From: Candidatus Loosdrechtia aerotolerans
GTDB taxonomy: Bacteria > Planctomycetota > Brocadiia > Brocadiales > Brocadiaceae
Length of the DNA: 64,000 bases
Direction of reading: 5' to 3'
NCBI GenBank assembly: GCA_021646405.1
Contig: SOER01000003.1
Span: 62,001-126,000 of the forward strand
Both the position numbers and the translations under genes were made by a program. Each line of letters starts with the position of its first letter. The first letter of the stretch is position 1. The notes under the pieces were generated by a model that made no database searches, was not told the origin of the DNA, and was given only the letters and a program-made list of their open reading frames with translations. Positions 11,776 to 60,480 of this stretch are shown in pieces.

Positions 11776-12368
11776 ACTTATAATAAGGAAAAATATTAAC
11801 TTATACTATTAACTCTATACTTCTAAAATATTATAGTAGCACTTCACTGTTTTATCCACAAGTATTCGCTTCAGACCATATACCTTTTCTTAAGACTACA
11901 ACGTATCATCATTTGCAACATGCGACATGTCATCATTTGTAACATGCTACATGTCTGTAACTTGTCACAGTTTTTCTTTTTTTCTGCATTCGTTCTCCTC
12001 TATCATATCCATATTATCCCCTGATAAAGCGTTTTCGACTCACATCACAAAAGTAAAAATAATTCATTCTTAGTTTTTTAAAATCGGAAACTTAGGTAAA
12101 TTTTATTATTTAACAACATTTGGTTTTCACCTTTATAAAAAATGTTTGGTATAGGTTTTTCTATATAACTTTTTCAGGGATTAAACATGCCTCTCTAGCA
12201 CAATCTTATAATCACCCATATAAAATAATTCAAAAGAAAAACTTATATTGTTCCCTTTTTGATATTTTTAGAAGGAGGTGCAACAGGAAACCTATCTTTA
12301 GAGCAGAGTAGTTTGTTTATACGCATTCTATCAATGGTGTAGTATATATCGTAAGAAAAGGAGTGGAT
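11776..12368. other. Long divergent intergenic region
   Basis: Separates the polyferredoxin gene (minus) from the 14-repeat secreted protein gene (plus). It is strongly AT-rich. The one notable structure is a 24-base direct repeat at 11907-11954 (listed separately). A GGAG Shine-Dalgarno at about 12360-12363 precedes the plus-strand gene. A short frame at 12120-12311 has no coding character that I trust. Confidence 0.5.
11907..11954. repeat. Two tandem 24-base direct repeats, operator-like
   Basis: Units 11907-11930 and 11931-11954 are head-to-tail and differ at two positions (CATCATTTG, then C or T, AACATGC, then G or T, ACATGT). Unit 2 contains TGTAACATGCTACA, a 14-base palindrome with a single mismatched pair, and another TGTAAC...GTCACAG segment follows. 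The repeat is about 130 bases upstream of the polyferredoxin start and 410 upstream of the secreted protein, so it is more likely a binding array for the polyferredoxin promoter. Confidence 0.45.
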
Positions 12369-14432
12369 ATGACCAATAAAAGATTTTTACTCAGCATACC
12401 TTTGGCTTTCTTCATGAGTCTTGTTTTATTTGTTATGGATGTTCCGGCTAAAACTGTGTGGGAAAAGAGGGCAATAGACCATCCAAAATATATTACACAG
12501 TGCTATTCGAGGGCAATCACTATCGATACCAACAATCGACCTCATATTACATATGGAGGAGATTGTCTCTATTATGCATACCATGATGGTAATAATTGGA
12601 AATATAGAATTGTAGATCGGTCACCCGGGGTAGGTTATTATGCCTCTATAGCACTTGATGCATCAGGTAACGTGCATATCAGTTATTATGATTGGTATAA
12701 TAAAAATCTGAAGTATGCAACAAATGAATCTGGATCATGGGTCATAAAGGTTTTAGATGCAAAGGGAGATGTAGGCCTATACACCTCTATGGCGGTTGAC
12801 ACATCAAATAAAATACACATTAGCTACTATGATGCTACGAATGGTGACCTCAAATATGCCACGAATGCATCCGGCTCATGGGCCAAAAGGCGACTGGACA
12901 AATGGGAAGATGTAGGCCGGTATACATCCATAATGCTCGATTCATCAGACAAAGTCCATATTAGCTACTATCATGTCACAAAAGGTAACCTTAAGTATAT
13001 TACCAATGCATCGGGTTCCTGGGCAAAAAAGATTGTCGATGCGAAAGGAGATGTAGGTCAATATACCTCCATAGCGCTTGATACATCAGGCAAGGCTCAT
13101 ATTAGTTATTACGATGCCACAAACAACAAACTGAAATATGCTACGGATAAATCAGGGTTATGGAAAAAACAAACGGTGGATAGTTCCGGAAGGGTAGGAC
13201 GTTATTCCTCTATTGCACTCGATAAATTTGACAAAGTACATATCGCCTACTATTCTACAACCATGGGAGATCTGAAGTACGCCACGAATACCCTTGGACA
13301 ATGGAACATAGTAATCGCTGACGCTCACGGAATTACAGGCCAGTACACATCATTAGCGCTTAATAAAAACGGCCAAGTGCATATATCTTACTATAACTAT
13401 TCCAGTAAGAGTCTTATGTATATTACGAATATTTTAAGTTCGTGGGCAAAGGATGTTGTAGATAATTGCGGAGTTGTAGGCCAGTATACATCCGTGGCGC
13501 TCGATTCATCGGATAAGACACATATCAGCTATTTTGATTCACTTCATGGTAACCTTAAGTATATTACAAACAAAACAGGATCTTGGACCAAGAAAATTGT
13601 AGATAATGAGGAAAAGGTAGGTATGTATACCTCCCTGGCACTTGATTCTTCGGATAACATTCATATCAGCTATTACGATGATACAAACAGCGATCTGAAA
13701 TATGCGGTATATAACGGGAAAAAATGGACCGTTATAACCGTAGATAGTAATGGAAACGTTGGTGAATATACCTCTATAGCAATTGATGCGTCTGATAAGG
13801 CACATATCAGTTACTATGACAGGACAAATGGTCATCTTAAGTATGCAACGAATGTAACAGGTACATGGGAGACAACGGTTGTTGATAACAATGGAAATGT
13901 AGGGGCTTTCTCATCTATAGCACTTGACTCATCAGGTAATGCGCATATCAGCTATTACGATGATACAAATGACGATCTGAAATATGCAACAAATGCCTTC
14001 GGACAATGGGCATCAACAAAGGTGGATGGTCAGGGAAATGTAGGTATGTATTCTTCCATTGCAGTTGATACATCCGATAGGATTCATATTAGCTACTTTG
14101 ATGATAGCAGAGACGACCTCAAATATGCCAATAATATATCAGGTTTATGGGCAAGATTCATTATTGATGATGGTATAGGGATAGGCCAACATACTTCAAT
14201 CGTACTTGATGCATCAAATAACGCATACATCAGTTACTATGACAGTTCAAAAGATAATCTCAAGTATGCAAGTAACGCATCAGGCAAATGGGAGATAGAG
14301 ACCTTAGATATCAGGGGAAATGTAGGTGGACATACCGCTATAGCGCTGAGCACATCAAATGATGTATGCATTAGCTACTATGATTGGACCAAAGGTGATC
14401 TAATGTGTGTTATCAGTTCGACTACAGAGTAG
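12369..14432 (+). CDS. Secreted protein made of 14 tandem ~45-residue repeats (probable double beta-propeller)
   Basis: 687 residues from the ATG at 12369, chosen because GGAG lies five bases upstream and the protein then starts with a clean signal peptide (MTNKRFLLSIPLAFFMSLVL). A GTG six bases earlier is the alternative. The rest is 14 copies of a unit with the core consensus VGxYTSIALDxSxxxHISYYD followed by LKYATNxSGxW. The spacing of aromatic and glycine residues matches beta-propeller blades; 14 units would make two seven-bladed propellers or one larger ring. The last copy is degenerate (CISYYDWTKGDLMCV). It is probably extracytoplasmic or surface-bound; ligand unknown. A terminator-like hairpin follows. 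Confidence 0.8.
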   Translation: MTNKRFLLSIPLAFFMSLVLFVMDVPAKTVWEKRAIDHPKYITQCYSRAITIDTNNRPHITYGGDCLYYAYHDGNNWKYRIVDRSPGVGYYASIALDASGNVHISYYDWYNKNLKYATNESGSWVIKVLDAKGDVGLYTSMAVDTSNKIHISYYDATNGDLKYATNASGSWAKRRLDKWEDVGRYTSIMLDSSDKVHISYYHVTKGNLKYITNASGSWAKKIVDAKGDVGQYTSIALDTSGKAHISYYDATNNKLKYATDKSGLWKKQTVDSSGRVGRYSSIALDKFDKVHIAYYSTTMGDLKYATNTLGQWNIVIADAHGITGQYTSLALNKNGQVHISYYNYSSKSLMYITNILSSWAKDVVDNCGVVGQYTSVALDSSDKTHISYFDSLHGNLKYITNKTGSWTKKIVDNEEKVGMYTSLALDSSDNIHISYYDDTNSDLKYAVYNGKKWTVITVDSNGNVGEYTSIAIDASDKAHISYYDRTNGHLKYATNVTGTWETTVVDNNGNVGAFSSIALDSSGNAHISYYDDTNDDLKYATNAFGQWASTKVDGQGNVGMYSSIAVDTSDRIHISYFDDSRDDLKYANNISGLWARFIIDDGIGIGQHTSIVLDASNNAYISYYDSSKDNLKYASNASGKWEIETLDIRGNVGGHTAIALSTSNDVCISYYDWTKGDLMCVISSTTE

Positions 14433-29590: not shown

Positions 29591-32338
29591 ATGAGCGATA
29601 CTACAATTTCTCACTGTATTTATGAGAAATCATTCTCCATGAGACTTCCTTTAAAAAACAATTCAAGTATTGTAATTATAGGCGGTGGGCCATCAGGTAG
29701 TTTCTTTACCTATTTCACCCTCAAGCTTGCAAGGAAATACGGATATAATCTTTCATTAACAATCTTTAATGGAAGGGACTTTATTCAGAAGGGCCCTGTT
29801 GGTTGTAATATGTGTGCAGGAGTCCTGTCAGAGACCCTTATCGAAAGAATGGAATCTGAGGGGATTGTACTACCAAAGACACACGTCCAGCAGGAGATTA
29901 ACGGCTACTATTTTCAAACACAAGAGCGTGGCATTCCATTATATCACCCGGTACCAGGACATAAGCCGAAGATTGTAACAATATTTCGGGGGAATGGCCC
30001 CCGGTTTTCCAGGCTAACGGACAATGTCAGTTTTGATGATTTTTTACTCAGGCACGTCGCAGCCCAGGGCGCAAAGATTATCCCTGCCGTTGTAGAAGAA
30101 ATAGAGCTATCAAAAAACCCGCATGATTTGGTAAATATTGTTTACTCCGAAGCAGGTGTAAAGAAAAAGATATCCGCACATCTTGTCGTTGGGGCATTTG
30201 GTCTTAATACATCTCTGATTAAAAGGATTGTGGGCAAGGAATTTGGATACCGGGAACCGCAATCCGTGCGTACCTGTAATGCAGAACTTCGCTTAGGACG
30301 CCCGTTTATTCAGGAAAACTTCCACAATACCATTTTTGTATTTGCGTTAGGAATCAAACCCATCAAATTTGCTGCCTTCATACCGAAGGGAGATTATATT
30401 ACGGTTTCTCTTGTTGGTAAAGAAGATATTACAAAGGCACATTTAACAGAATTCTTGAAACACCCTAAAGTACGAGAACTTCTACCCGACGGATGGTCAT
30501 TACCAAAAGATCTCTGTATTTGCTTCCCGAGAATCCCGATTTCCCATGCCACCCACCCGTATACCAACCGATTTGTTATCGTAGGAGATGCCAGCATCTC
30601 ACGTACTTATAAGAATGGCATTGGGTCTGCTTTTGATACTGCAAAACTAGCATCATATACCATCTTCAAAAATGGAATCGCTGAAAATGATTTTAAGAAA
30701 GGATATTTTATCCCTGCATTAAAACTTTTAGCGCAGGATAACTTCTTTGGTAATCTTATATTTGGTATACACGGCTATACCACATCCAGCCGGCAGCTGG
30801 TAAATATTCAGATTGATCATCTTATGAAACATAAAAATGCCTGGGAATCAAGACAGATTAACAGCATTCTATGGAATATGGTTACCGGTAATGCAAGTTA
30901 TAAAGAGATTTTCCTCAAGGTTATTGATGTACGTCTCCATGTATTGATGTTCCCCTATATCTTTTCTGCCCTTGCAAAACAAGCATATGAATATCTGGAT
31001 AACCACCTGCATCCGGGACAAGACAAAACAGTGACATCTCAAAAAGAACTGGAATTAGGTCCTTTGAAAAATGGGCAAACGGTCGCCATTATTGGAGGGG
31101 GACCTGCAGGTGCAAGTTGTGCAATCGCCTTAAAAAATCTCGCAAAAAAACAGAATATCAGCATAGATGTCATCCTGTATGAGATGAAAGACTTTGAAGG
31201 TGGTATTGAACACAACGAATGTGCCGGAGTCCTTTCACAACCCATAGAACGTATTCTTGAAGAAAAACTTAATATCCCGTTTCCATGGCATCTCGTTAAA
31301 AGGGAGGTGTCAGGTTATTACCTCCATACTGACGGACAGATTGTCAAACTCGATGGAGAAGGAGAAATCTCTTACGCAGTCCGCAGGATTCAATTCGACG
31401 CTTATCTTTTAAAAAAGGCAAAAGAGGCTGGCGCAACGGTCATCCAAAGCAAAGTTACTGATGTAGAGATTGGTAAACATAAGGTTACGGTGTACAGCGA
31501 TACAAAGCATATTTTAGCTGACGTTGTCGTTGGGGCGTTTGGTCTTGAAGAGGGCACCAACAGGGTATTTGAAAGTGAAACATCCTATGAATCACCGGGA
31601 TTCATTCTTACTCTGTTAACCAAATTCCACCCGAAAGGAAAACTTCATGAACTAGAAAATACCAATGGATATATCCATGCCTTTTTACCTTCTGGTAAAG
31701 GAATAGAATTCGGTGCCATTACCCCGAAGGCAGATCACTATACGATCAATATCGCAGGTGCAAAGATTTCATCCAGGTCTATGGACAAATTTCTTCGATT
31801 ACCTGAGGTTTTAGCCATACTTCCCGAAAATTTTAAAGAGTCGCTGGATAAACTTGATTACCATCGCGGTTGTTTTCCTATAAGACCTGCAAAAAATCTC
31901 TTCGGGAATAGATATGTCACTGTTGGCGATGCCGCTGGTCTCATACGCCCATTTAAGGGTAAGGGAGTTAATGCAGCATGCCTGATGGGCATTGCTGCCG
32001 CAGAAACAATGATGCATGTTGGTATATCGAAAGAGGCTTTCCGCACATATGCAGACAGTTTTCGGGAAGTCATGAAAGATCTTCCTTATGCAAAAGCGGT
32101 AAGAAGATTTGTTATCTGGGGCACACGTTATGGTTTTCTTACCCCTATTATCCAAACTGCAAAGAACCATCCATTATGCAAAAGGGCATTATTTGATAGT
32201 ATATCGGGCAAAAAGATGTACCGGGAGATATTGTTAAGTACCATGAGTGTGGCACTTTTTCTAAAAATAGCTGCACTACTCGCTCAGTGGTCTGTAAAGC
32301 GTATATATAACTCCTTTAAGTATTTCTCCCGCTTTTGA
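29591..32338 (+). CDS. Tandem FAD-dependent oxidoreductase (two geranylgeranyl-reductase-like units fused)
   Basis: 915 residues, about twice the usual length. Each half starts with an FAD dinucleotide motif (GGGPSG near residue 32; GGGPAG near residue 500), then a CAGVLS segment (GCNMCAGVLSETL and HNECAGVLSQPI), then a VVGAFGL segment, and ends with the second FAD motif (VIVGDASISRTYKNG and VTVGDAAGLIRPFKG). The halves are clearly duplicates. The family includes geranylgeranyl reductases and related oxidoreductases of isoprenoid lipids, so it may reduce double bonds of polyprenyl chains. Which half is active is not clear; both FAD motifs look intact. Start at 29591 has no strong ribosome site; 29639 is an alternative. 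Confidence 0.82.
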   Translation: MSDTTISHCIYEKSFSMRLPLKNNSSIVIIGGGPSGSFFTYFTLKLARKYGYNLSLTIFNGRDFIQKGPVGCNMCAGVLSETLIERMESEGIVLPKTHVQQEINGYYFQTQERGIPLYHPVPGHKPKIVTIFRGNGPRFSRLTDNVSFDDFLLRHVAAQGAKIIPAVVEEIELSKNPHDLVNIVYSEAGVKKKISAHLVVGAFGLNTSLIKRIVGKEFGYREPQSVRTCNAELRLGRPFIQENFHNTIFVFALGIKPIKFAAFIPKGDYITVSLVGKEDITKAHLTEFLKHPKVRELLPDGWSLPKDLCICFPRIPISHATHPYTNRFVIVGDASISRTYKNGIGSAFDTAKLASYTIFKNGIAENDFKKGYFIPALKLLAQDNFFGNLIFGIHGYTTSSRQLVNIQIDHLMKHKNAWESRQINSILWNMVTGNASYKEIFLKVIDVRLHVLMFPYIFSALAKQAYEYLDNHLHPGQDKTVTSQKELELGPLKNGQTVAIIGGGPAGASCAIALKNLAKKQNISIDVILYEMKDFEGGIEHNECAGVLSQPIERILEEKLNIPFPWHLVKREVSGYYLHTDGQIVKLDGEGEISYAVRRIQFDAYLLKKAKEAGATVIQSKVTDVEIGKHKVTVYSDTKHILADVVVGAFGLEEGTNRVFESETSYESPGFILTLLTKFHPKGKLHELENTNGYIHAFLPSGKGIEFGAITPKADHYTINIAGAKISSRSMDKFLRLPEVLAILPENFKESLDKLDYHRGCFPIRPAKNLFGNRYVTVGDAAGLIRPFKGKGVNAACLMGIAAAETMMHVGISKEAFRTYADSFREVMKDLPYAKAVRRFVIWGTRYGFLTPIIQTAKNHPLCKRALFDSISGKKMYREILLSTMSVALFLKIAALLAQWSVKRIYNSFKYFSRF

Positions 32339-58300: not shown

Positions 58301-60190
58301 ATGAATTACAAACCATATGCAGTTTCATGGAATACAACCTATCGTTGCAATCTGCACTGCAGCCATTGTTATCTCGATACGAATGCACTAACCAAACAAT
58401 CTGCCAGTGAATTAACCACCCGGGAAGGATTTAAACTCATAGACCAGATGGCAGAACTGAATCCCAACCTGCTCTTAATCCTTACCGGTGGAGAGCCCTT
58501 GCTCAGAGAGGATATTTACGATTTAGCTTCATACGCCTCCCAGAAAGGTATGATGGTAGTGCTGGGCACAAACGGAAACCTGATTGACGACGACATTGCA
58601 AAGAGGTTAAAAGAGAGTGGGGTAACCGGTATTGGTATCAGCCTTGATTCTCTTGTACCTGAGATACACGACAATTTCCGGGGAAATTCAGGTACGTGGG
58701 ACGATACCCTTAACGGGATCGAAGCATGCCGCCGGCAGGGAATCGAGTTCCAAATACAGACTACCGTCACCAGGAAAAATTTTCACGAAATTCCCCGTAT
58801 TATCGAATTCTCATACAACCTCGGCGCAAGGGTTTTCAACCTATTCTTTTTGGTATGCACCGGTAAAGGTCAGGAACTAACGGACATTACACCGCAACAA
58901 TACGATCAGGCGCTTCTTCAGCTCTACGAAATACAAAAAAACTACCAGGGAAAAATGATGGTAGGCGCAAAATGTGCGCCGCACTATCGAAGAATTGTGT
59001 ATGAACATGATACCACATCACCTCTTGTCCGGGCATACGCAGGGGGGTGTCCGGCCGCCACGCATTATTGCAGGATTACTCCAGAGGGAGATGTTACACC
59101 GTGCCCTTATATGCCTAATATTTCCGGAAATATACGGGAAAAGGATTTTGGGGAGATATGGAATAATGCCGCCGATTTTCAATCCCTGCGGTATGCAGAC
59201 CTCAACGGTAGATGCGGAATATGTGAATTCAAGCACCTCTGCAAAGGATGCCGGGCAAGGGCACTTGCTACAACAGGAAACCAAATGGACGAAGATGCCT
59301 GGTGTAATTATATTCCGGGACACTATGGTAATACGGTTATCCAATTGGCATCATCTGAAACCTTTGGAATTGAGGAGGATTTTACTCTACCCTGGAGCGC
59401 AGAAGCAAAGGGCATTCTAAAGCAAATCCCCTCTTTCAGCCGGGGTATGGTTATAAAAAATGTAGAAAACTATGCAGCAGAAAATAATCATCAGGAAATA
59501 ACATTAGCAATAATGAAATCTGCACGGGAAGAGATGATTTTAAAGAGAAGAACTGCGTTTCCTGCAGAAGATAAAAATCAGGATATACAGGTGAAAGAAG
59601 ATAAAGACCGTGTCCACCAGGACGATGAAATTCCATGGACCGAAGAGGCAAGGAAACGGGTTGCAAACGCCCCGGACTTTGTACGACCAGGTATTTTAAA
59701 ACTCATGCAGAAAAAAGCACGGCGTCATGGTTATACAGAAATTACCTCTAAATTTCTTTCTGAAATAAGGGATGAATCTATGCAGCTTGCGTCAAAACGT
59801 ATTAAGAATATCGGCTTTGATGAACTCAGAATGGACGCCTGGGACAAGGCAAAAGAAAAATTAAAAAGTGTTCATAAAAAAGAAGTTATCGATACTATTA
59901 AGAAATTTCTGGAAGAGCGTACCCATAAGAAAGAAGGCATTATTACCAAATTCCAGGCCTATTTGAAAACTGTAAACAGAACAACACAAGAAACCCCTTT
60001 GTCACCTACATGGACAGAGGAAGCATCACAGCGTATTGAAAGAGCACCTCTCTTTGTGAGAGGGAGAGCAAAGAATGCCATTGAAGACTTTGCAGTCCAA
60101 AACGGTATTGCCGAAATCACTATAGAATTGATAGAGCGATACATGAAAAACATCCCCTCTTTTGTTAAAAATAAATTCCGGGATACATAA
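58301..60190 (+). CDS. Radical SAM/SPASM protein with three C-terminal PCP-reductase-type domains
   Basis: 629 residues. Radical SAM core with the cluster cysteines C16, C20, C23 (CNLHCSHC), GGEPLLR and a SPASM-type cysteine region at about 264-340 (TPCPYMPN, CGICEFKHLCKGCRARA). This part resembles the NirJ/AhbC/AhbD enzymes of heme d1 and heme synthesis. Three ~50-residue domains follow at about 363-410, 444-493 and 569-618, each with W-[ST]-x-E-A, a -P-x-F-x-R- pair and an EIT core, the pattern of the C-terminal domain of light-independent protochlorophyllide reductase. A triple copy on a radical SAM protein is unusual. Tetrapyrrole chemistry is the best guess, not proven. Confidence 0.8.
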   Translation: MNYKPYAVSWNTTYRCNLHCSHCYLDTNALTKQSASELTTREGFKLIDQMAELNPNLLLILTGGEPLLREDIYDLASYASQKGMMVVLGTNGNLIDDDIAKRLKESGVTGIGISLDSLVPEIHDNFRGNSGTWDDTLNGIEACRRQGIEFQIQTTVTRKNFHEIPRIIEFSYNLGARVFNLFFLVCTGKGQELTDITPQQYDQALLQLYEIQKNYQGKMMVGAKCAPHYRRIVYEHDTTSPLVRAYAGGCPAATHYCRITPEGDVTPCPYMPNISGNIREKDFGEIWNNAADFQSLRYADLNGRCGICEFKHLCKGCRARALATTGNQMDEDAWCNYIPGHYGNTVIQLASSETFGIEEDFTLPWSAEAKGILKQIPSFSRGMVIKNVENYAAENNHQEITLAIMKSAREEMILKRRTAFPAEDKNQDIQVKEDKDRVHQDDEIPWTEEARKRVANAPDFVRPGILKLMQKKARRHGYTEITSKFLSEIRDESMQLASKRIKNIGFDELRMDAWDKAKEKLKSVHKKEVIDTIKKFLEERTHKKEGIITKFQAYLKTVNRTTQETPLSPTWTEEASQRIERAPLFVRGRAKNAIEDFAVQNGIAEITIELIERYMKNIPSFVKNKFRDT

Positions 60191-60295: not shown

Positions 60296-60480
60296 AACAA
60301 ATAAATTCCAAATAACAATATCCAAATAACAAATAAATCCCAAAAAACAAATCCCAAATTCCAAAAAGTGTGGTTTTGGAAATTGGATATTGAGATTTGG
60401 AATTTGTTTGGAATTTGGAATTTGGGATTTGGGATTTACGCTTGCGTTTATCTGCGTCCTATTTTTGGTTTTTGGAATTT
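60296..60480. repeat. Large TTTGGAATT/AAATTCC-type palindromic repeat
   Basis: The first part is made of AAATAAATTCC, AAATAACAA and AAATCCCAAATTCC units; after a GTGTGG centre (about 60368-60373) the complementary strand pattern appears (TTTTGGAAATTGG, TTTGGAATTTGTTTGG, TTTGGGATTTGGG). The two halves can pair as a very long imperfect hairpin. It occupies most of the space before the sensor kinase at 60484 and is the source of a false N-terminal extension. Confidence 0.7.

Follow-up and report, generated by a model that had tools for sequence, protein, structure and literature searches.

A radical SAM/SPASM protein with three PCP_red domains and its possible role in maturing the bd-like cytochrome module of NXR-type gene clusters

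AhbD is the heme b synthase that carries out the last heme step in some anaerobes, and some SPASM enzymes built along similar lines act on peptides instead. The PCP_red domain is known mainly from chlorophyll synthesis. The NXR clusters contain a conspicuous and enigmatic 'bd-like' protein, in which the heme b ligands are conserved and the quinol site is missing (PMC3578206), and the gene cluster of this protein is conserved with Nitrospira, Nitrospina and anammox bacteria (PMC6606698). Fusion of PCP_red to a universal stress protein (USP) has been described in Methanomicrobiaceae (PMC12159084). Our literature search returned no paper in which a radical SAM protein is connected with the NXR cluster or with the bd-like protein. 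Here, we describe a gene that brings these elements together, located in a 64,000-nucleotide stretch of DNA (the window).

Architecture of the gene and its radical SAM core

The gene is a single uninterrupted open reading frame of 629 amino acids, occupying window positions 58301–60190 on the forward strand. Brocadiaceae orthologs match it along its entire length at 70–82% identity. The encoded features are:

58301..60190, + strand: complete gene, radical SAM/SPASM protein with three PCP_red domains, 629 aa (open frame; Brocadiaceae orthologs matching along the entire length)
58331..58810, + strand: radical SAM core, residues 11–170 (PF04055, 94.0 bits; CX3CX2C formed by C16, C20 and C23)
58973..59305, + strand: SPASM region with eight cysteines (PF13186, 39.0 bits at residues 250–308)
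59393..59527, + strand: PCP_red copy 1, residues 365–409, ancestral-type copy (PF08369, 55.9 bits)
59546..59623, + strand: flexible linker from copy 1 to copy 2 (ortholog alignment; pLDDT <50)
59636..59767, + strand: PCP_red copy 2, residues 446–489 (PF08369, 35.5 bits)
59789..59995, + strand: helical stretch 3' of copy 2, residues 497–565 (conserved in the alignment; three predicted helices)
60011..60139, + strand: PCP_red copy 3, residues 571–613, Brocadiaceae-specific (PF08369, 57.1 bits)

The original prediction, that one chain joins a radical SAM core, a SPASM region and three PCP_red domains, was confirmed by Pfam, and the three PF08369 matches (365–409, 446–489 and 571–613) lie inside the intervals first proposed. 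PCP_red accounts for 135.7 bits summed over three stretches of the full protein. When scored in a whole-genome scan, each copy exceeds the curated PF08369 cut-off of 32.5 bits (57.1, 55.9 and 35.5 bits), and the agreement of these matches is far beyond chance. The linker between copies 1 and 2 differs widely in length among orthologs. The full-length structure model has a mean pLDDT of 57; at this quality it was read for the fold of the core and the tail only, and not for the geometry of ligands or clusters. On the 3' side of the gene, positions 60300–60470 of the window are A/T-rich and contain repeated AATTTGGAATTTGGGA-like words that run in either orientation and so make up an inverted repeat.

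The CX3CX2C motif, the PF04055 match and the SPASM region with its auxiliary-cluster cysteines place the protein in the Radical SAM/SPASM superfamily. The eight SPASM cysteines (C225, C250, C268, C305, C308, C314, C317 and C335) are spaced CX24CX17CX36CX2CX5CX2CX17C, which fits the full-SPASM motif of AhbD, with its AuxI and AuxII cysteines, as given in PMC10452713. This complete AhbD-type set is kept in 20 of the 20 clade members tested. Fifty-three core positions are nearly fixed and identical in the PCP_red-tailed clade and in AhbD, including a CxPxxxR motif that contains the AuxI residue Cys225. At 15 other positions both groups are nearly fixed yet differ from each other.

The core is closest to tetrapyrrole enzymes but falls below the family thresholds. 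Its best NCBIfam profile is NirJ2 (TIGR04055; 336.1 bits, cut-off 500), with AhbD at 332.8 bits (TIGR04545; equivalog cut-off 500), TIGR04053 radical SAM/SPASM third at 289 bits (cut-off 395) and NirJ at 195.4 bits (cut-off 515). NirJ2 and AhbD are also the best models for eight related proteins, which scored 279–345 bits against the AhbD model, likewise below 500, and the deficit is 155–221 bits in every clade member tested. In a maximum likelihood tree of cores, all PCP_red-tailed radical SAM proteins form one clade (support 97/98) that is sister to AhbD (100/99) and apart from AhbC and the NirJ-like proteins, the internal forks of the AhbD and PCP_red-tailed clades being only partly resolved. 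Judged from these comparisons, the protein is a member of neither the AhbD nor the NirJ family. The NirJ/Ahb-type core originally predicted is borne out as to its nearest models, its SPASM cysteine spacing and its sister clade, but not as membership in either family. By its anatomy, the core would be expected to work like the AhbD and NirJ enzymes. The tetrapyrrole flavour that was originally proposed is likewise supported.

The genome represented by the window also encodes AhbA-type and AhbB-type proteins, an AhbC (743 bits, cut-off 650) and a separate AhbD (495 bits, cut-off 500), to which our protein is 39% identical. A role as the only AhbD of this genome, making heme b, was therefore rejected. 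It might instead be an AhbD isozyme, a second heme b synthase that delivers the same product to a respiratory module; the shared cysteine ligands, the many common core residues and the 39% identity are what this idea would predict. We consider it decidedly unlikely, since this genome and all five families (f1–f5) compared already possess a canonical AhbD, and since the score deficit, the separate well-supported clade and the 15 differing positions set the tailed proteins apart.

A role in making heme d1 was also rejected. A search of the window's genome for cd1 nitrite reductase gave just one weak, partial match (PF02239, 30.7 bits), and in Scalindua-type genomes a nirS-like gene is accompanied by three further nirJ-like genes. 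The d1-like heme suggested in the original prediction is accordingly unlikely. The nirS-like neighbours in family f4 are proteins other than the PCP_red-tailed radical SAM protein. In the Scalindua-type genomes, the three radical SAM genes, nirJ/ahbC-like, are consecutive (L145, L146, L147).

The PCP_red tail and its copy history

A sequence search of the PDB with the tail retrieved subunit B of the light-independent protochlorophyllide reductase DPOR (2kru, 2xdq and 3aek) and the stand-alone protein Asr4154 (2l09). The modelled tail fold superimposes on 2kru with 0.7 Å over 50 columns, and profile–profile comparison of the PCP_red copies gave probabilities of 97.7–98.5%. NCBIfam BchB models match the tail region only, with no match to a nitrogenase-like body. 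The tail has no cysteine. Its sole histidine invariant within Brocadiaceae, H476, is not kept in families f4 and f5.

PCP_red had been read as a protochlorophyllide-reductase domain, a description that proved too narrow: in the window's genome it also occurs at the C-terminus of a tandem USP (L001), and a siroheme-reductase-like Fe-S protein whose gene neighbours those of AhbA and AhbB carries it as well (L004/L142). At the latter locus (L142, 7961–9889, contig C44), PCP_red lies at the N-terminus of a NIR_SIR/ferredoxin protein whose gene stands in a row with siroheme decarboxylase genes of AhbA-like and AhbB-like type; this protein may carry or handle siroheme for the Ahb heme pathway. At several loci (L135, L138–L141), the gene of an Mrp/NBP35-type Fe-S carrier ATPase is followed by that of a small zinc-ribbon protein with PCP_red at its end. 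In genome G062 the Mrp, small zinc-ribbon–PCP_red and radical SAM–PCP_red genes are directly consecutive (L135, 8782–12147).

The number of PCP_red copies on the radical SAM protein varies by lineage. Counted beyond Pfam with a small home-made profile, it is one in the ortholog from Brocadiales family f3 (G034), two in f4 and f5, and three in every full-length ortholog of Brocadiaceae (f1). Single-copy radical SAM proteins were found in six further Planctomycetota genomes (G062, G078, G095, G118, G137 and G296). In a tree of the copies, which are short sequences and weakly resolved overall, copy 1 groups with copy 1 of f4 and f5 and with the single copy of L123 (84/88), copy 2 of f1, f4 and f5 forms one clade (100/100), and copy 3 forms a separate Brocadiaceae-only clade (100/97) without counterpart in f4 or f5. 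The tail has grown in steps, from one to two to three copies. Residues 497–565, which are conserved also in the two-copy forms of f4 and f5, have a helix pattern resembling that of PCP_red and are possibly a decayed fourth unit; against PCP_red they show no profile similarity (hhalign probability 1%).

The copies can reside on either partner. The balance is three on the radical SAM protein and one on the USP in the window's genome, and one on the radical SAM protein and two to three (Pfam) on the USP in G062, G078 and G137. This distribution suggests a docking array. The USPs with two or three copies, each accompanied by a single-copy radical SAM partner, are encoded at L118 (7258–9327), L119 (4845–7466) and L120 (4720–7011). 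The USP of L118 also carries a rubredoxin-like domain.

Genomic setting and co-occurrence with the bd-like protein

The gene lies immediately downstream of a USP gene with a C-terminal PCP_red in family f5 (L081, L082) and in G095 (L129/L132), and in G118 (L131) it adjoins one. A single small gene separates radical SAM–PCP_red in f3 (L083) from a USP without a PCP_red match. All of these settings, which span f3, f5 and two outside families, lie inside a cluster that encodes the CydA-like bd-like protein and several c-type cytochromes. In f4 the gene is found beside a bd-like/cytochrome c cluster or beside a Rieske/cytochrome b operon. The G118 locus also contains a second radical SAM–PCP_red gene, split in two frames, next to the intact copy and USP–PCP_red (L131, 501–1773).

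The window's genome has the homologous cluster on another contig (L137), without the radical SAM–PCP_red gene. Its order is bd-like protein (PF01654, 73 bits), cytochromes c, USP–PCP_red and then NXR-type subunits (EB_dh, Fe-S and molybdopterin). We conclude that the radical SAM gene has moved away from the cluster in this genome. Throughout Brocadiaceae, the window included, the gene stands beside no respiratory genes, and its recurrent neighbours encode a sensor kinase and a response regulator; neighbours lacking a Pfam call were named by eye. The window also contains a 915-residue ORF that appears by eye to be a tandem fusion of two geranylgeranyl-reductase-like flavoprotein halves (29591–32338). 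A 689-residue ORF with many ~48-residue repeats (ISYYDxTNxxLKYATN; 12363–14432) is, again judged by eye, probably a beta-propeller surface protein.

Presence of the gene follows that of the bd-like protein. Among 294 Planctomycetota genomes, 22 encode the bd-like protein; radical SAM–PCP_red is present in 21 of these and in none of the other 272. Fisher's test gives 3e-31, but the genomes are related, and the association is more fairly put as the presence of both in seven families, all in one phylum and amounting to a handful of independent lineages. In Brocadiales, 46 of 59 genomes have the gene, every one of them together with the bd-like protein. In three genomes, all fragmented assemblies (G009, G044 and G054), the bd-like protein occurs alone. 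Both are absent from G056 and from each of the nine f2 genomes.

Family f2 separates the candidate partners. Most of its genomes encode hydrazine synthase, which was searched for in the Brocadiales genomes, and NxrA (45–58% identity). This agrees with what has been published on Bathyanammoxibiaceae, in which NxrA branches separately (PMC9723696). Hydrazine synthase was rejected as a partner, being present in f2 where the gene is absent, and the NXR catalytic subunit is a weaker candidate than the bd-like protein, since f2 has NxrA and neither the gene nor the bd-like protein. The distribution is therefore accounted for by the bd-like module and by neither enzyme. Several f1 genomes gave no hydrazine synthase match, for which assembly gaps may account.

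These results bear on the anammox-specific or d1-like hemes proposed in the original prediction, with each of the three tail domains binding a tetrapyrrole. PCP_red does recur in DPOR subunit B and in the siroheme-reductase-like protein beside AhbA and AhbB, as would suit such an enzyme. The expected link to hydrazine-synthesis genes nevertheless fails in f2, and the one-copy form occurs in planctomycetes outside Brocadiales. Together with the lack of a full cd1 in the window's genome, the presence of other nirJ genes beside a nirS-like gene and a tail that offers neither a conserved cysteine nor a cross-family histidine as iron ligand, this makes such a role highly improbable.

The association could also be inherited baggage, the gene having taken up an unrelated role in Brocadiaceae after leaving the cluster. 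Its recurrent regulatory, rather than respiratory, neighbours in f1 point in this direction. In separate families, however, the gene comes and goes with the bd-like protein, both being absent from f2, and it is kept at 70–82% identity with an expanded tail; in view of these observations we regard an unrelated role as very unlikely.

Proposed role and comparison with known systems

The near-perfect co-occurrence with the bd-like protein suggests a role in building that cytochrome. We propose, with a probability of roughly 45%, that the protein serves the bd-like/multi-cytochrome c membrane module in NXR-type clusters as its dedicated maturation enzyme, acting by heme chemistry and equipped with docking tails. 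Its substrate would most likely be a heme. The core would use radical chemistry of the AhbD/NirJ type, abstracting hydrogen from a tetrapyrrole side chain, with electrons leaving via the auxiliary clusters, and the heme so altered would be destined for the bd-like/cytochrome c module. The need for a modified heme is speculative, because the cited papers predict heme b in the bd-like protein. The tail would be a docking array for PCP_red-bearing partners rather than a catalytic part; these partners would be USP–PCP_red and, in some genomes, the small zinc-ribbon–PCP_red protein next to the Mrp-type Fe-S carrier. Copy number may have risen as the gene left the operon.

The main rival keeps the enzyme in the same module and changes its substrate to a protein, with a cross-link or other modification made on a residue of the bd-like protein or a cytochrome and the target presented by the PCP_red tails. 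Most SPASM enzymes that have two auxiliary clusters act on peptides or proteins; PqqE, SkfB and anSME turned up when our protein was searched by sequence and fold, and the co-occurrence evidence fits equally well. We nonetheless judge a protein substrate unlikely, on the grounds that profiles and tree both place the core nearest to the tetrapyrrole enzymes NirJ2 and AhbD rather than to peptide maturases and that 53 nearly fixed core positions are common with AhbD. Pfam finds no peptide-recognition domain in the protein, and no gene for a small precursor peptide is conspicuous in the clusters, where small ORFs were judged by eye.

Returning to the proposed maturation enzyme, we would put forward more hesitantly, as a doubtful reading, a new radical SAM family that supplies an as yet undescribed modified heme, or a covalent heme-protein modification, to the bd-like complex of nitrite-oxidizing respiratory chains, with PCP_red as a general docking domain of assemblies that handle tetrapyrroles and its copy number tuned between partners. 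If correct, an AhbD-like enzyme that comes and goes with the bd-like protein would suggest an unrecognised cofactor or modification there. For PCP_red, the gene family adds a second setting in which the domain recurs, one where its successive duplications can be traced.

Among described systems, AhbD (TIGR04545) is the closest to the core: it shares the radical SAM domain, the complete eight-cysteine SPASM region with the same spacing and the CxPxxxR motif holding an AuxI cysteine, and it forms the sister clade. Unlike our protein, AhbD has no PCP_red tail, and genomes with the tailed protein have both. NirJ2 and TIGR04053 provide the best and third-best NCBIfam profiles, although the core scores below both cut-offs. 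A plasmid search outside the phylum for tail-bearing relatives returned core matches only; the plasmid-borne TIGR04053 relatives of Thermus match in the core but not in the tail. USP–PCP_red has the same C-terminal domain and an adjacent gene in the respiratory cluster, whereas its body is a tandem USP rather than an enzyme core. DPOR subunit B (BchB) has a tail domain of the same family and fold, but carries one PCP_red on a nitrogenase-like body, whereas the protein described here carries three on a radical SAM body.
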